A stretch of 64,000 bases of DNA. Origin: Balneolaceae bacterium (GTDB taxonomy: Bacteria > Bacteroidota > Rhodothermia > Balneolales > Balneolaceae). Made by a program: the position numbers and the translations under genes. The notes under the pieces were generated by a model. That model did not search any database. It worked only from the letters and a program-made list of their open reading frames with translations, and was not told where the DNA came from. Shown piece by piece: positions 28,378 through 52,596 of this stretch. Numbering within the stretch: position 1 is the stretch's first letter; each line of letters starts with the position of its first letter. Location of the stretch: contig CP030887.1 in NCBI GenBank assembly GCA_006969905.1, positions 558,001-622,000 of the forward strand. Reading direction: 5' to 3'.

Positions 28378-28851
28378 ATGAATATCGATACACGCAATCA
28401 AATTATCAGCATCTTTTTGGGCGTAGTTATTATTGCATTAGCCTGGTTGCTTTACGACTCTATAGTTACTCCGTACCAAGAAGTTATCGAAAGAGAAAAA
28501 ATGACAGAGCGTGTTCGTGAGAGAATGCTTGATATTAAGGACGTTCTCGTTCAATACGATGCAACCTATGGGCATTTTCCCCCAACCGAAGGAGGATTGG
28601 ATAGCGTTGTCTGGTTTGTCCAGAATAATGAATTAATGGCTTCTATGGCTGACAGCATTTTTGGAGGAGATGATGGTACTTTTGATCCCAACACTATTGT
28701 TTTCTCACCAAGAAATCCTGCAGCCAAATTTGCCTATACTTTAAATGACACCCTGCGCCCTCCTCTTTACCTTCTCGAAGACCCGGATACGGACGATGCC
28801 GTTGGCAGCCTTACCCGAACAACGATGAGAAACGCCCCTACCTGGAATTAA
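28378..28851 (+). CDS. Membrane-anchored protein, weakly GspG-like, unknown function
   Basis: 157 residues with one N-terminal membrane helix ('IISIFLGVVIIALAWLLYDSI') and an extracytoplasmic part. 'YDATYGHFPPTEGGLDSVV' recalls the loop of major pseudopilins (GspG), but the prepilin cleavage site and Glu5 pattern are absent, so I do not call it a pseudopilin. Its stop overlaps the DUF3822 start by one base (TAATG), so it is in the same operon as DUF3822, rsmD and coaD. Confidence 0.7.
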   Translation: MNIDTRNQIISIFLGVVIIALAWLLYDSIVTPYQEVIEREKMTERVRERMLDIKDVLVQYDATYGHFPPTEGGLDSVVWFVQNNELMASMADSIFGGDDGTFDPNTIVFSPRNPAAKFAYTLNDTLRPPLYLLEDPDTDDAVGSLTRTTMRNAPTWN

Positions 28852-29711
28852 TGAGTGAAACCACCTCAAACTTAGGTGTTTGTTTTTTTGCGGATCGACT
28901 TTTTTATGCTATCAATGATCCTCAAAACAGCAAGCACCTTTTTCATATCGGCTCGTATGATTTCAATTTCGATGTGAATGAGGCTATTACTTCCAGGAAT
29001 TCCGATTACTTTCCGCACATCCAAAAAACTGTTGATCAGCTTCTCAAAGAGTTTGAGGTAAAATCATTTCGGGCACTTACACATCCTGCTGACGAATGCT
29101 GGACAACCCTGCCAAAAGTAGTGTTCGACAATTCAGATGAACGAGAGGATCACCTTTCAATTTTAATGAAAGGGGTTGAACGGGAAGATATTGAACCAAC
29201 CTGGCATGCTCTCAGCAAAAAGGAGTTTAAATTTCTTTGCCTTCGCCGAAGGGCTGTTATGCAGGGGTTTGATGATTTAACATCCAAGATTGCAATAACC
29301 GAATTTGCCAGCGATTTTGAGATTGCACAAAAATGGTCTCAGTTTGCCAAGCCGGGTGGTTCTTTTATGATGCTGGGCTGCCACAAAAATGTACTAACCG
29401 TTTCTTCTTATCTATTAGGAAAGTTTCGGGCAGCTACCTTTTTTCAATTCGATCAGCCTGCAGATATTCCCTATCACTGGTTGCAAAATGCTACCCATTC
29501 CGGCTGGATGACGGGACTCCACGAAAACATCTACCTTTTCGGGCATCATACCCATGAAGCAGAACAAAACCTTCGTTCGTTTCTTGACCCGGCCTCCCAA
29601 ATTACTCATTTCAATTCTTTAGAAGTAATGGGAGTACAGGCCGATGAAGAAACCTATGGCTTTGATCTGACAGCAGCTTTCCCGGCTATACTTCTCAGTT
29701 TAGATGTCTAA
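28851..29711 (+). CDS. DUF3822 family protein
   Basis: 286 residues; a conserved Bacteroidota family with an actin/ASKHA-like or pilus-assembly-like fold suspected but no proven role. The hallmark is its genome position directly before rsmD and coaD, which is met here (40 bases to rsmD). Features seen: 'LGVCFFADRLFYAI' at the start, 'FRALTHPADECWTTLPK' and 'FHIGSYDFNFDV'. No membrane segments. Starts in the stop codon of the previous gene. Confidence 0.8.
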   Translation: MSETTSNLGVCFFADRLFYAINDPQNSKHLFHIGSYDFNFDVNEAITSRNSDYFPHIQKTVDQLLKEFEVKSFRALTHPADECWTTLPKVVFDNSDEREDHLSILMKGVEREDIEPTWHALSKKEFKFLCLRRRAVMQGFDDLTSKIAITEFASDFEIAQKWSQFAKPGGSFMMLGCHKNVLTVSSYLLGKFRAATFFQFDQPADIPYHWLQNATHSGWMTGLHENIYLFGHHTHEAEQNLRSFLDPASQITHFNSLEVMGVQADEETYGFDLTAAFPAILLSLDV

Positions 29712-47583: not shown

Positions 47584-48096
47584 ATGTCATCAAGCTTTCG
47601 AAAAATTACCATTGAAGACCCTTTTAAAATTTGTTTTGTATGCTTAGGTAATATCTGCCGCAGCCCAACCGCTGAAGGAATCTTTATCCATAAAGTAAAA
47701 AAGGCAGGGCTTGAACTCTTTTTCTATATCGATTCTGCCGGAACTGCAGCCTATCATGTCGGGGAACCTGCAAACAGTAAAAGCCAGGCTACGGCCAATA
47801 AACATGGCGTTCATTTACCCTCCACGGCTCAACGATTTGAATATCGTGATTTGGAAGAATTTGACCTAGTTTTGGCTATGGATTCAGAGAATTATCATAA
47901 TCTTTCGAACCTGGACAGGAAAGGTTTGTATACAGAAAAGATTAAAATGATGCGGGATTTTGATCCTCAAAAGGGAGACGGACAAGTACCGGATCCTTAC
48001 TATGGCGGAATCCAGGGGTTTGAGAATGTATTTCATATCCTGGATCGAAGTTGTGAAGCTCTTTTGGATCAATTAAAAGATTACATCCAAAAATGA
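47584..48096 (+). CDS. Low-molecular-weight protein-tyrosine phosphatase
   Basis: 170 residues. The P-loop C(X)5R appears as 'FVCLGNICRSPTAEG' and the general-acid Asp as 'VPDPYYGG'. LMW-PTPs dephosphorylate tyrosine kinases of polysaccharide export or arginine-phosphate substrates. Its stop overlaps the next start (ATGA), so it is cotranslated with the fructosamine kinase. The N-terminal ~10 residues precede the fold and may be a short extension. Confidence 0.92.
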   Translation: MSSSFRKITIEDPFKICFVCLGNICRSPTAEGIFIHKVKKAGLELFFYIDSAGTAAYHVGEPANSKSQATANKHGVHLPSTAQRFEYRDLEEFDLVLAMDSENYHNLSNLDRKGLYTEKIKMMRDFDPQKGDGQVPDPYYGGIQGFENVFHILDRSCEALLDQLKDYIQK

Positions 48097-48941
48097 TTCC
48101 TGAACGCATTAAACATATCATTGAGGAAACATTTAATGACCGGATGGTTTCAGTAAAACCGCAAAGTGGTGGTGATATTAATCAGGCTGCCAAAATAGAG
48201 ACTGATTCAGGGGATCGTTTTTTTCTTAAGTGGAATTCTTCTGCTCCTGAAGATATGTTCGAAGCGGAAGCAAAAGGTCTTGAATTGCTTGACTCAGCGC
48301 TTACTGATTTAGTCATTCCTGAGGTAATCCTGATCGATGACAATTTCCTGCTCCTTGAATTTATTGAGGAGTCCAATACCGGAGATTCATTCCATTTTGG
48401 AATACAGCTAGCAAAACTCCACAAGAAAACCAATGAACTATTCGGACTCGATCACTCCAATTTCATAGGAAAGCTTCCTCAACAGAATAAGTATCATGCA
48501 GACTGGCTGGAGTTTTTCATGCGTGAACGATTAGAACCCCAGGTTAAAATGGCCATCGATTCGGGAAAGCTGGAATCTGCCTTTCATTCTATTTTCGACC
48601 GGGTAATGAATTATACCTATGTGGTTTTTCCTGATGAGCCCCCCGCACTTCTTCATGGAGATCTTTGGGGAGGAAATTATATGTTTAATGCTGAAGGTAA
48701 AGCATGCTTATATGATACGGCTGTGTATTTTGGTCATCGGGAGATGGATATTGCAATGACCCAGTTGTTTGGCGGTTTTAGCACTGATTTCTACCGAGGA
48801 TATAATGATGAATACCCTTTGGAAAAGGGATTCGAGGAGCGTTCCAGGCTTTGCAATCTTTATCCGGTTTTAGTCCATTGCAATTTATTCGGTGGGCATT
48901 ATTGCAGTCAGGCTGAGGCTTTGCTAAAGCGTTTTTTTTAG
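48093..48941 (+). CDS. Fructosamine/ketosamine kinase family protein
   Basis: 282 residues of the aminoglycoside-phosphotransferase-like kinase fold: 'PQSGGDINQAAKIET' at the N-terminus, 'LLEFIE', the catalytic 'LLHGDLWGGNYMF' (HGDxxxxN) and metal-binding 'YDTAVYFGHREMDIAM'. The family phosphorylates ketoamines on glycated amines or proteins so they fall apart, a repair role. Coupled to a tyrosine-phosphatase gene, a common pairing in this phylum. Confidence 0.9.
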   Translation: MIPERIKHIIEETFNDRMVSVKPQSGGDINQAAKIETDSGDRFFLKWNSSAPEDMFEAEAKGLELLDSALTDLVIPEVILIDDNFLLLEFIEESNTGDSFHFGIQLAKLHKKTNELFGLDHSNFIGKLPQQNKYHADWLEFFMRERLEPQVKMAIDSGKLESAFHSIFDRVMNYTYVVFPDEPPALLHGDLWGGNYMFNAEGKACLYDTAVYFGHREMDIAMTQLFGGFSTDFYRGYNDEYPLEKGFEERSRLCNLYPVLVHCNLFGGHYCSQAEALLKRFF

Positions 48942-48952
48942 TATAATCTGGA

Positions 48953-49912
48953 ATGCTCCCTAAAAAAATTTGCTATTTGCTTTTTCCTGATGTTCATCTT
49001 CTCGATTTATCCGGGTCAGTTCAGGTTTTCTATGAAGCAAAAAACCTTGGCAACATATCTTATGAAACCGTATTCGCATCAGTAAACTCTTCGGTAATTT
49101 CTGAACAGGGTCTCTCGCTTTCCGGTTTGAAGAATCCAAACGATATATTACTTCAAGAAAATGATTTCATAATTGTTCCCGGAACCGATTTTGGAAAGCT
49201 AGTTGAAGGAAACATTGATACCGAAATAGAAGAAGTAAAATTATGGATTAATGAGCAATATGATAAAGGAATAAAAATTGCCAGTGTATGTACCGGATCT
49301 TTAATCCTGGCCAAACTGGGCCTCTTAAATTCAAGAAAATGTACTACGCACTGGAAGTGTATCGATTATCTGACAGAGTCTTTTCCTGAAGTAAAAGTAG
49401 AAGCTGACAAGCTATTCAATTACGATACAAATATTTACACAAGTGCAGGCATGACTTCCGGAATAGACATGTCTCTTTCGATTATTGAAGAGGAACAGGG
49501 TCCCATTGTTTCTACAAAAGTAGCCAGAGAAATGGTTGTCTACTTAAGGCGACAAGGTGCGTCCTCTCAAAACTCAATTTACCTGGACTATCATACCCAC
49601 TTCAACCCTCTGGTTCACAAAGTTCAAAATCATATTATTTCAAATCCCTCAAATAATTATTCTCTTAAAGAGCTGGCTGAAATTGGCAATACCAGTGTAC
49701 GGAATCTCACTAGAGAGTTTAAAAAAGCTACCGGAACTACCGTTATAGATTTTAAAAATAATATGAAGCTAGAATTGGCAAAAGAGCTTATTAATAACCC
49801 TAATTACACGATAGATACAATTTCCGAAATGTGTGGGTTCTCTGCACCCCGACAACTTCAGCGACTTTGGAAAAATAAATTCGGCTATTCAATTTCGGTA
49901 AAGAAGACTTAA
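48953..49912 (+). CDS. GlxA-type transcriptional regulator (DJ-1/PfpI + AraC HTH)
   Basis: 319 residues. Residues ~5-180 are a DJ-1/PfpI domain ('ICYLLFPDVHLLDLSGSVQVFYEA', nucleophile-elbow Cys113 in 'IASVCTGSLILAKLGLL', 'TSAGMTSGIDMSLSII'). The last ~95 residues are an AraC-type double helix-turn-helix ('YSLKELAEIGNTSVRNLTREFKKATGTT', 'TIDTISEMCGFSAPRQLQRLWKNKFG'). It lies 83 bases before the sulfur cluster on the same strand and could control it, but no site was identified. Confidence 0.9.
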   Translation: MLPKKICYLLFPDVHLLDLSGSVQVFYEAKNLGNISYETVFASVNSSVISEQGLSLSGLKNPNDILLQENDFIIVPGTDFGKLVEGNIDTEIEEVKLWINEQYDKGIKIASVCTGSLILAKLGLLNSRKCTTHWKCIDYLTESFPEVKVEADKLFNYDTNIYTSAGMTSGIDMSLSIIEEEQGPIVSTKVAREMVVYLRRQGASSQNSIYLDYHTHFNPLVHKVQNHIISNPSNNYSLKELAEIGNTSVRNLTREFKKATGTTVIDFKNNMKLELAKELINNPNYTIDTISEMCGFSAPRQLQRLWKNKFGYSISVKKT

Positions 49913-49995
49913 ATTCTGGCCAGATATGTCAGATTGTAGTCTATAACACTTGCTTAGTGCGATCGTAATTTGCCCTCAACCAACAGGACAAATTT

Positions 49996-50882
49996 ATGAA
50001 AACACTTACCTCAACAATTCTTACGCTTTTAATTTTCACAGCCTTCAGTCAGGCTCAAATCTCTCCATTCAAATCTACAGACTGGCTTAAAGAACATCTC
50101 CATGATGACAATCTGGTCATATTCAATATTGGCCCCAGGGATATTTATTCAGAAAAGCATATACCGGGAGCTGTATTTATACAAAGTTCTGAATTCACTA
50201 TTGATTCTGATGCTGAATCAAAAGCTTATGATCTTCCCCCGAGAAGCAATTAAATGAACTCTTCCAATCAAAGGGAGTAAATAATGGAGATACGATTTTA
50301 TTGTATGTAGCCTCCAATCACATTACTACTATGACGAGGCTGTATTATACCCTTCACTATCTGGGGTATGAGCGTAACACTTTTATGCTTGAGGGTGGAA
50401 TGCCCTTGTGGGAACATGAGGGAAATGAACTGACCAATGCAATACCGGAAATAGAGCGCGGAAACTTTTCAGCTAAAGCGAACCCGAATTTGGTTGTTGA
50501 TATCGATAAAATGAAGAAATATGTCCAGACTTCAGCAGTAAAAATTATAGATGCCCGGGCCCCTGTGTTTTATGATGGTGTACAAGAGAGTATGGGTGAA
50601 AAAGGTCATATCCGTGGAGCTAAATCAATCCCATTTGGCTCTGTTTGGGATGAAGGCCCGAATGGGTCTTACCTTCTTAAAGACGCTGGCGAGCTTAGAG
50701 AAATATTCTCTGCTCAGGGAATTACCGATAAAGAGCAGCCATTTGTAGTGTACTGCCATATTGGTATGCAGGCCACTTCCATATTTACTGCAGCCAAATC
50801 TATTGGTCTAAATCCTGTTTTATTTGATGGGTCGATGCATGAATGGGGTCATAATAGAGGTAACCCCATGGAGGTAGATTAA
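49996..50882 (+). pseudogene. Periplasmic thiosulfate/3-mercaptopyruvate sulfurtransferase, frameshifted
   Basis: Two rhodanese domains encoded in two frames. The first frame (49996-50253) has a signal peptide ('TLLIFTAFSQAQ') and starts the first domain ('IFNIGPRDIYSEKHIPGAVFI'), then ends at TAA. Adding one C to the CCCCC tract at 50236-50240 joins it to the other frame, which runs 'PEKQLNELFQSKGVNNGDTILLY...' unbroken to 50882. The joined protein would have about 295 residues, normal for this family, with the catalytic Cys in 'VVYCHIGMQA' (codon 50754-50756). So this is a one-base deletion in a homopolymer: a true mutation, a slippage switch, or a sequencing error. One base overlaps the next gene. 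Confidence 0.85.
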
Positions 50883-51412
50883 TGCCTTTCATTAGGAAAA
50901 CGGCCGAACCTTACTGGAACCCCTATATTTCAGGAATCGGCCTTGGATTGGTTTTATTGTTTACTTTCCTTGTAATGGGAAGAGGAATTGGTGCTTCCGG
51001 AGCCATGACTTCGGTTGTTGCTACAACAGCAAATGTTATTTCACCTCAACATGCTCAGGCAAATGAATTCTTCCGGGGATATTTAGGTGATGGCACTGTA
51101 AGTCCACTCAAAGATTGGCTGGTGTTTGAAGTTATAGGGGTTCTGATTGGCGGTTTTCTTTCCGGAATTTTTGCAGGTCGAACTTCTATCAAAATTGAAA
51201 AAGGGACCGGGATCTCAACCAATCGAAGATTTCAGTATGCATTCATTGGCGGAATGATCATGGCTTTTGGCACTAAACTGGCCAGGGGTTGTACCAGTGG
51301 CCAGGCCCTTACCGGTGGAGCTTTAATGAATGTTGGAAGTTGGTTATTTATGATTTCATTATTTGCTGGTGCTTATGCAATGGCTTGGTTTGTACGGAGG
51401 CTGTGGATATGA
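50882..51412 (+). CDS. YeeE/YedE-family sulfur transporter, first half
   Basis: 176 residues with about four membrane helices. 'MAFGTKLARGCTSGQALTGGALMNVGSW' carries the conserved Cys loop of the family, whose E. coli member YeeE (TsuA) imports thiosulfate. The first half of a split transporter: a second gene with the matching half follows with a 4-base overlap. Starts in the stop codon of the sulfurtransferase (TAATG). Confidence 0.9.
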   Translation: MPFIRKTAEPYWNPYISGIGLGLVLLFTFLVMGRGIGASGAMTSVVATTANVISPQHAQANEFFRGYLGDGTVSPLKDWLVFEVIGVLIGGFLSGIFAGRTSIKIEKGTGISTNRRFQYAFIGGMIMAFGTKLARGCTSGQALTGGALMNVGSWLFMISLFAGAYAMAWFVRRLWI

Positions 51413-52002
51413 ACGGGCCTTTTTTCATTAACGGCTGGATTGGCGAAGAGGCAAGCTTAATATTTGCACTTTTTATAGGTATCGCATTTGGGTTTTTTCT
51501 GGAACGCGCCGGACTTGGGAGCGCCAAAAAACTAGCATCTCAGTTTTATGGACGTGACATGACTGTTTTTAAAATGATGTTTACTGCCATCATCACGGCT
51601 ATGGTTGGATTGTTTTGGTTCGATTATTTCGGCTGGCTTCAACTTGAGCTTGTTTATCTTACTCCAACATTTGTGGCACCTCAGATTATTGGGGGACTGG
51701 TATTCGGGGTCGGCTTCATTATTGGGGGATACTGTCCCGGCACTTCCTGTGTGGCAGGTGCAACAGGTAGCCTGGATGGCTGGGTAAATGTGATCGGAAT
51801 GCTTGCAGGTATTCTTGTCTTCGGGGAGCTTTATCCCTGGCTGGAAAGCTTTTATAATGCTACCCCAATGGGTGAACTTACCTTTGTTGACTACTTCAAT
51901 CTTCCTGCCGGTTTGATGGTATTCATTTTAGTGATGATTGCCTTAGGCGGATTTTGGCTTTCAGAAAAAATCGAAACTAAAATGGCTAACAAGGATTTGT
52001 AA
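51409..52002 (+). CDS. YeeE/YedE-family sulfur transporter, second half
   Basis: About 197 residues from the ATG at 51409, which overlaps the previous stop as ATGA. The frame is open upstream to 51289, but that would sit inside the first half. Membrane helices flank 'LVFGVGFIIGGYCPGTSCVAGATGSLDGW', the conserved Cys motif of the second half. With the preceding gene it reconstitutes a full-length transporter for thiosulfate-type sulfur. Last base overlaps the next ATG. Confidence 0.9.
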   Translation: MNGPFFINGWIGEEASLIFALFIGIAFGFFLERAGLGSAKKLASQFYGRDMTVFKMMFTAIITAMVGLFWFDYFGWLQLELVYLTPTFVAPQIIGGLVFGVGFIIGGYCPGTSCVAGATGSLDGWVNVIGMLAGILVFGELYPWLESFYNATPMGELTFVDYFNLPAGLMVFILVMIALGGFWLSEKIETKMANKDL

Positions 52003-52592
52003 TGAAGTTTTCGCTCAATCTAAAACTTGCTTTCTTTGCACTTACCCTTTCCCTTCTGGCTTTGATCGCATCAATTTTTTTTACTGATCATTTGCCCTCA
52101 GAAAACATCTCTGGATCAAACTATATCACTGTATTAGATTTAGCAGAAAGTATTAAAAATCGAGATTCGATAACTCTAATTGATCTTCGAAGTAATGAGG
52201 ACTTTGATCAATTTCATATCCCAACAGCAAAAAACCTGATCTTGCCAGAGCTGATCGATGATGATTTCAATGCCAATACTAAAATAGTCCTTTATTCAGA
52301 AGGGGATTCATTATCAAGTCAAGCATTCTTTGCACTAAAAAGGAAGGGTATCACAAAGATAAGAGTTCTGAAAGGTGGAGTTCAGGATTGGTATAATCGG
52401 CTGCTTTACCCCAGAATGCCTAAAGAAGTTCCTATCGAAGATAAAGCATTAGCTAATCGTGTAAAATCCTTATCAACCTATTTCGGAGGCCGCTCAGAGT
52501 TTGTGGATGAAGGTAATCCTTTAGACTATTATAAAAATGAACAATCCAGTCAACCAATCTTTAGAAGTAAATTAGTGCGAATGGGATGTTAA
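52002..52592 (+). CDS. Membrane-anchored rhodanese-like protein without catalytic Cys
   Basis: 196 residues. One N-terminal membrane helix (~8-27), then a rhodanese fold: 'LIDLRSNEDFDQFHIPTAKNLIL', 'KIVLYSEGDSLSSQAFFALKRKG', 'VLKGGVQDW'. The catalytic Cys is Ser99 in 'VLYSEGDS', so it is probably not a sulfurtransferase by itself. The last residue is a Cys ('RMGC'), the only one in the extracytoplasmic part, which might take sulfur or a metal. Belongs to the sulfur operon by overlapping its neighbour. Confidence 0.82.
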   Translation: MKFSLNLKLAFFALTLSLLALIASIFFTDHLPSENISGSNYITVLDLAESIKNRDSITLIDLRSNEDFDQFHIPTAKNLILPELIDDDFNANTKIVLYSEGDSLSSQAFFALKRKGITKIRVLKGGVQDWYNRLLYPRMPKEVPIEDKALANRVKSLSTYFGGRSEFVDEGNPLDYYKNEQSSQPIFRSKLVRMGC

Positions 52593-52596
52593 GAAC

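Follow-up and report, generated by a model that had tools for sequence, protein, structure and literature searches.

The rhoA frame break

The tandem rhodanese gene rhoA changes reading frame at a CCCCC run on the forward strand (positions 50236–50240) of the 64,000-nucleotide stretch of Balneolaceae DNA analysed here, which we call the window. The question raised by this locus is whether the break is a mutation carried by the organism, an error in the sequence, or a device by which the expression of the gene is switched or recoded.

The 5′ part of rhoA ends in a TAA stop codon at 50251–50253, ten bases past the C5 run, and the resulting stub matches positions 1–48 of the 102-position profile PF00581 (Pfam), which corresponds to half a rhodanese domain (Table 1). 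The −1 frame stays open between 50232 and 50882; the RhoA protein continues in it from position 50241 for 213 codons, and the frame holds a near-complete second rhodanese domain (PF00581 profile positions 3–100 of 102). A sequence-only reading of the window had located a frame break at this CCCCC run, and the stub ORF, the open −1 frame, the Pfam halves, and the intact orthologues described below confirm it. Two separate genes can be ruled out, as the break falls in the middle of a domain, inside rhodanese domain 1. Should the break not be real, the locus still matters to curators, in that the two parts of rhoA should not be annotated as two proteins.

Table 1. Features of the rhoA locus, with positions counted from the first base of the window.
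Feature	Position	Strand	Description
GlxA-like regulator	48953..49912	+	DJ-1/PfpI and AraC helix-turn-helix domains (Pfam); upstream of the operon
rhoA 5′ part	49996..50253	+	85-residue ORF with ATG at 49996; first half of rhodanese domain 1, a few out-of-frame residues, TAA
rhoA 5′ part, N terminus			Hydrophobic, signal-peptide-like (judged by eye, without a prediction tool)
rhoA 3′ part	50241..50882	+	−1 frame; remainder of domain 1 and catalytic rhodanese domain 2, with the cysteine in VVYCHIGMQ
Possible first start of the rhoA 3′ part	50301..50303	+	Putative TTG, with GGAG (50286–50289) 11 nt upstream (by eye)
yeeE1	50882..51412	+	Half-size YeeE/YedE transporter, like PmpA/PmpB (Pfam)
yeeE2	51412..52002	+	Second half-size YeeE/YedE transporter (Pfam)
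rhoB	52002..52592	+	Single rhodanese domain; apparent membrane-anchor or signal N terminus (by eye)
Block of regulator, rhoA, yeeE1, yeeE2 and rhoB	48942..52596		Six of seven genus mates lack it between their kinase and luciferase-like genes

The two rhodanese domains of rhoA differ in that the catalytic cysteine belongs to the second; this residue is kept in the window and in 29 of 29 homologues. By its domain organization, rhoA is a tandem rhodanese sulfurtransferase of predicted enzyme activity. The placement of the cysteine in the second domain is shared with the tandem-domain thiosulfate/3-mercaptopyruvate sulfurtransferases (PF00581). The first domain of tandem sulfurtransferases is typically inactive. 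The intact orthologue from genome G030 matches the structures PDB 1uar, over residues 31–291 (E 2.4e-25), and PDB 1urh (E 7.9e-23). The score for the PRK11493-type 3-mercaptopyruvate sulfurtransferase falls far short of the NCBIfam cut-off (94.8 bits against 250). Unlike the known tandem sulfurtransferases, the rhoA product is predicted to be exported, and its frame is broken here.

Orthologues and the missing base

When 128 genomes of the order were searched, among them the one that contains the window, three close orthologues of rhoA were identified, in G030, G024, and G020, with identities to the C half of the window gene of 56%, 49%, and 46%, respectively. The rhoA type is present at E ≤ 1e-30 in four of the 128 genomes, again counting the window's own. 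A scan of genome contigs yielded only six distant loci with 26–29% identity, and a plasmid search yielded 185 records, all below 60% identity, with 35.1% the best among the matches listed. The three close orthologues are single uninterrupted frames of 299, 300, and 308 residues (G030, G024, and G020, counted from the first ATG). The frame is broken only in the window, and there are no internal stops in the 37 matches listed.

Judged from the protein alignment, one base is lost from rhoA rather than two gained, because in all three close orthologues YDLP is separated by exactly two residues from the position that aligns with the lysine of KQL. The alignment places the lost base at the C run or within a few bases of it. 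The run is the simplest putative site, rather than a proven one. At the DNA level, the junction of G020 contains six cytosines in frame, and those of G030 and G024 are without a run.

The C5 run at 50236–50240 is of an ordinary kind. In 384 kb of this genome (the window and a further 320 kb), 277 C/G runs reach a length of at least five bases, and longer ones in the same sequence comprise 37 runs of six and three of seven. Within the window, CCCCC is under-represented, with 50 matches on both strands versus a shuffle mean of 110.8. The density of C/G runs of at least five bases is 6.1–8.4 per 10 kb in the window and stretches L057–L072, about three times that of the genus-mate stretches, which have a similar G+C content and values of 1.0–2.5 in six cases and 4.0 in one.

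Constraint downstream of the break

Amino acid replacements were counted with G030 as the sister, at sites where both outgroups, G024 and G020, agree. The C half of rhoA, which follows the lesion, has 26 replacements in the window lineage versus five in G030. The corresponding counts are 7:9 in the N half, 2:4 in yeeE1, 5:5 in yeeE2, 6:9 in rhoB, and 9:8 in the kinase gene, and the Fisher P for the C-half excess is 0.007 versus the N half and 0.0013 versus yeeE1, yeeE2, and rhoB pooled. With a single outgroup, the C-half counts are 43:11 (G020 alone) and a weaker 35:18 (G024 alone); a lean towards the window is then also seen in yeeE2 (14:6, G020) and the kinase (22:12, G024). In a four-row tree, the C-half branch has a length of 0.89 in the window versus 0.14 in G030, a ratio matched in that direction by no other segment of the operon (window and G030, respectively: N half 0.44 and 0.94, yeeE1 0 and 0.13, yeeE2 0.12 and 0.045, rhoB 0.43 and 0.71). 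The addition of nine distant homologues changes the C-half values to 0.74 and 0.18. The C-half excess hints at a relaxation of constraint after the break. Alternatively, it could reflect lineage-specific adaptation, recombination, or a position of the window outside G030 and G020 for this segment.

Most of the window C-half branch evolved under constraint, because a model with omega fixed at 1 along the entire branch is rejected (P 0.0003), in a fit with saturated synonymous sites and with several branch lengths at their bound. A two-ratio codon model, subject to the same saturated sites and bounded branch lengths, is only marginally better (P 0.06). Eighteen of the 26 C-half replacements have BLOSUM62 scores of at least 0, versus 51% of random single-base missense changes.

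Conserved columns were defined from 29 homologues (35 loci, of which six were excluded for length). The catalytic cysteine and nine glycine columns conserved in at least 85% of these homologues are kept in the window rhoA. It departs from the consensus at six of 29 conserved columns, as does each of the three intact orthologues in a leave-one-out comparison; two distant homologues depart at fewer, one and none. The decay does not appear old, because the window gene departs at no more columns than the intact orthologues do. If rhoA is a pseudogene, it became one late on this branch. The 213 codons of the 3′ frame have acquired no further lesion. The statement of the sequence-only reading that both sides of the break are well conserved thus holds for the cysteine and glycine columns, but the downstream side has changed faster than its G030 counterpart (26:5).

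Deletion or sequence error

We consider a genuine, fairly recent one-base deletion that makes rhoA a pseudogene to be the best explanation of the locus, with a probability of roughly 0.6. A single base would have disappeared from the C5 run or its immediate vicinity, and replication slippage on a C6 tract is the simplest mechanism for this. Translation would then produce the 85-residue stub with only half of the first rhodanese domain, and the catalytic second domain would lie in another frame, lacking the export signal even if its translation were re-initiated. Because the stub is half a domain and the catalytic domain is out of frame, rhoA would be a pseudogene, lost while the transporter and rhoB were kept. 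We infer from the sequence all three elements of this account: that the organism itself carries the deletion, that function is lost, and that slippage was the cause. The break resembles the singleton frameshifted genes of the GeneTack classification (PMC3711429) in being isolated, supported by protein similarity and Pfam, and unconserved in homologues, and differs from them in no notable respect. The gene is probably broken, by an ordinary kind of mutation or possibly by a reading error, and is most probably not a switch.

An assembly or base-calling error, in which the organism's gene is intact and one C of C6 was dropped from the sequence, is less likely and ranks second. It would account for an isolated frameshift at a homopolymer in a gene that is otherwise sound and retains its conserved residues, and, according to a survey of reading frames (PMC3711429), most BLASTp-validated singleton frameshifts are expected to stem from sequencing errors and not from true indels. 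However, the genome is a single contig of 3,489,855 bases (3.49 Mb) with 99.77% completeness and 0.05% contamination, C/G runs of six and of seven bases were called in the same 384 kb (37 and three, respectively), and the excess of replacements in the C half is not expected from an artefact. An error also fits poorly with the lack of any other clearly split gene in the 384 kb.

This survey of 384 kb combined Pfam with an ab initio scan that uses hexamers to detect coding signal ahead of any start codon. In the window, a Pfam scan of 45 other ORFs among the 55 called segments (37 with a match and eight without) found no domain divided between neighbours. The hexamer scan of the 384 kb flagged rhoA and 12 other segments; it is not very sensitive, as it recovers the C half of rhoA and misses the short N half. 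Pfam searches of all 12 flagged segments and of seven of the eight flagged upstream neighbours, all but that in the joined stretches L063/L064, returned different families, whole domains, or no match, so that none is clearly split and three are not cleared (L060:6805–7596, window 28821–29711, and L071:10954–11169, without a Pfam match). In L060:6805–8378, the profile match of a lytic transglycosylase ORF is limited to positions 41–198 of 292, and the flagged segment 6805–7596 lies downstream of this ORF; this is a possible second broken gene. The flagged pair in L072 is not a frameshift, as it consists of threonyl-tRNA synthetase followed by a complete IF3 with a start that is apparently not ATG, GTG, or TTG. 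A comparison with genus mates for further frameshifts found no splits among the 10–16 ORFs per genome that the short synteny covers. Heavy homopolymer or indel error is unlikely in this genome, because no other gene is clearly split in 384 kb of a single-contig assembly; this leaves room for one isolated error. The sequence-only reading had proposed a recent mutation or an error, and both are possible, with the mutation favoured.

Recoding and phase variation

It is improbable that a programmed −1 frameshift or transcript slippage yields the full protein from rhoA, or that the gene has been split into a secreted stub and a re-initiated catalytic domain. The 3′ frame does keep the catalytic residues and signs of purifying selection, and the GGAG motif 11 nt upstream of the TTG at 50301 could serve re-initiation. 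Nevertheless, a conserved slippery run is absent from the three orthologues, all of which are uninterrupted, and the RNA downstream of the break is not unusually stable (z −0.15; 83 of 200 shuffles had equal or greater stability, in a test of pseudoknot-free structures). We reject programmed frameshifting on these grounds: neither the break nor the slippery site is conserved in homologues, and the test reveals no stimulatory structure. A split gene is difficult to reconcile with a break inside rhodanese domain 1 instead of between the domains, and it would deprive the catalytic part of the apparent export signal.

The sequence-only reading had also raised phase variation by slippage, in which the tract would alternate between C5 and C6, switching the periplasmic sulfurtransferase off and on. 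The lesion lies on a C run, and one extra C restores the spacing of the orthologues, but we regard such a switch as very unlikely. A phase-variable gene would be expected to have a long, conserved tract of about eight or more bases; in meningococci, the predominantly variable tracts were those of at least eight bases (PMC5084427). The tract of rhoA has only five bases and is not kept in the three orthologues, being absent in G030 and G024 and present as an in-frame C6 in G020. Furthermore, it is one of 277 comparable runs in 384 kb, and the faster evolution of the downstream half is unlike that of a gene that is regularly on. It is similarly improbable that the frameshift is a fixed splitting of the gene, by which the exported enzyme was lost, the C half is re-initiated as a cytoplasmic rhodanese diverging under changed constraint (26:5), and the importer hands sulfur to this cytoplasmic partner rather than receiving it from a periplasmic one.

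The rhoA operon and its relatives

The genes rhoA, yeeE1, yeeE2, and rhoB adjoin without gaps. The ATG of yeeE1 overlaps the stop codon of rhoA (TAATG), which suggests translational coupling of the two genes. The genes downstream of the break had been described as intact, and yeeE1, yeeE2, and rhoB are indeed open frames with Pfam matches. The products of yeeE1 and yeeE2 are adjacent half-length PF04143 proteins, like PmpA and PmpB in architecture; PmpA and PmpB have been proposed to work as a heterodimer resembling YeeE (PMC11582611). The yeeE products score below the cut-offs for the thiosulfate transporter TsuA, with a best score of 48.3 bits against 400. Unlike PmpA/PmpB and TsuA, the yeeE pair is flanked by two rhodaneses, one of them broken. 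The operon is thus predicted to encode a sulfur-compound importer pair and two rhodaneses, with the periplasmic location and sulfur substrate deduced from family knowledge and the appearance of the proteins. By eye, RhoB is without a cysteine at the usual catalytic place; it ends in VRMGC, as does its G030 counterpart.

The kinase gene, rhoA, yeeE1, yeeE2, and rhoB are found in a common order near ileS in G030, G024, and G020, which represent three other genera. Because the order from kinase to rhoB is conserved, we reject the recent insertion of a mobile element as an explanation for the break. The regulator upstream of rhoA is of the GlxA type in the window and G024; G030 has a different upstream gene on the opposite strand, AraC-like by eye. 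The luciferase-like gene downstream comes next in G020, is separated by one extra ORF in G030, and was not found in the G024 stretch. All seven genus mates lack rhoA, and none has a full-length yeeE1 match (six have a weak partial match and one has none). The kinase gene adjoins the luciferase-like gene in six of them, and the seventh is also without a luciferase-like gene.

The kinase (48093–48941), fructosamine-kinase-like by eye, is 71–76% identical to those of G020 and G030 and only 46–58% identical to those of the genus mates. In the kinase tree, the window groups with G030 and G020 (99/99), apart from the genus mates. Because of this grouping, the segment appears to have been either kept from an ancestor or acquired from a relative of G030. 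The kinase identities and tree resemble the outcome of an exchange of the segment between genera.

If the deletion in rhoA is real, this operon would have lost its periplasmic sulfurtransferase naturally and yet conserved its importer, suggesting that the importer can be retained in the absence of the enzyme.
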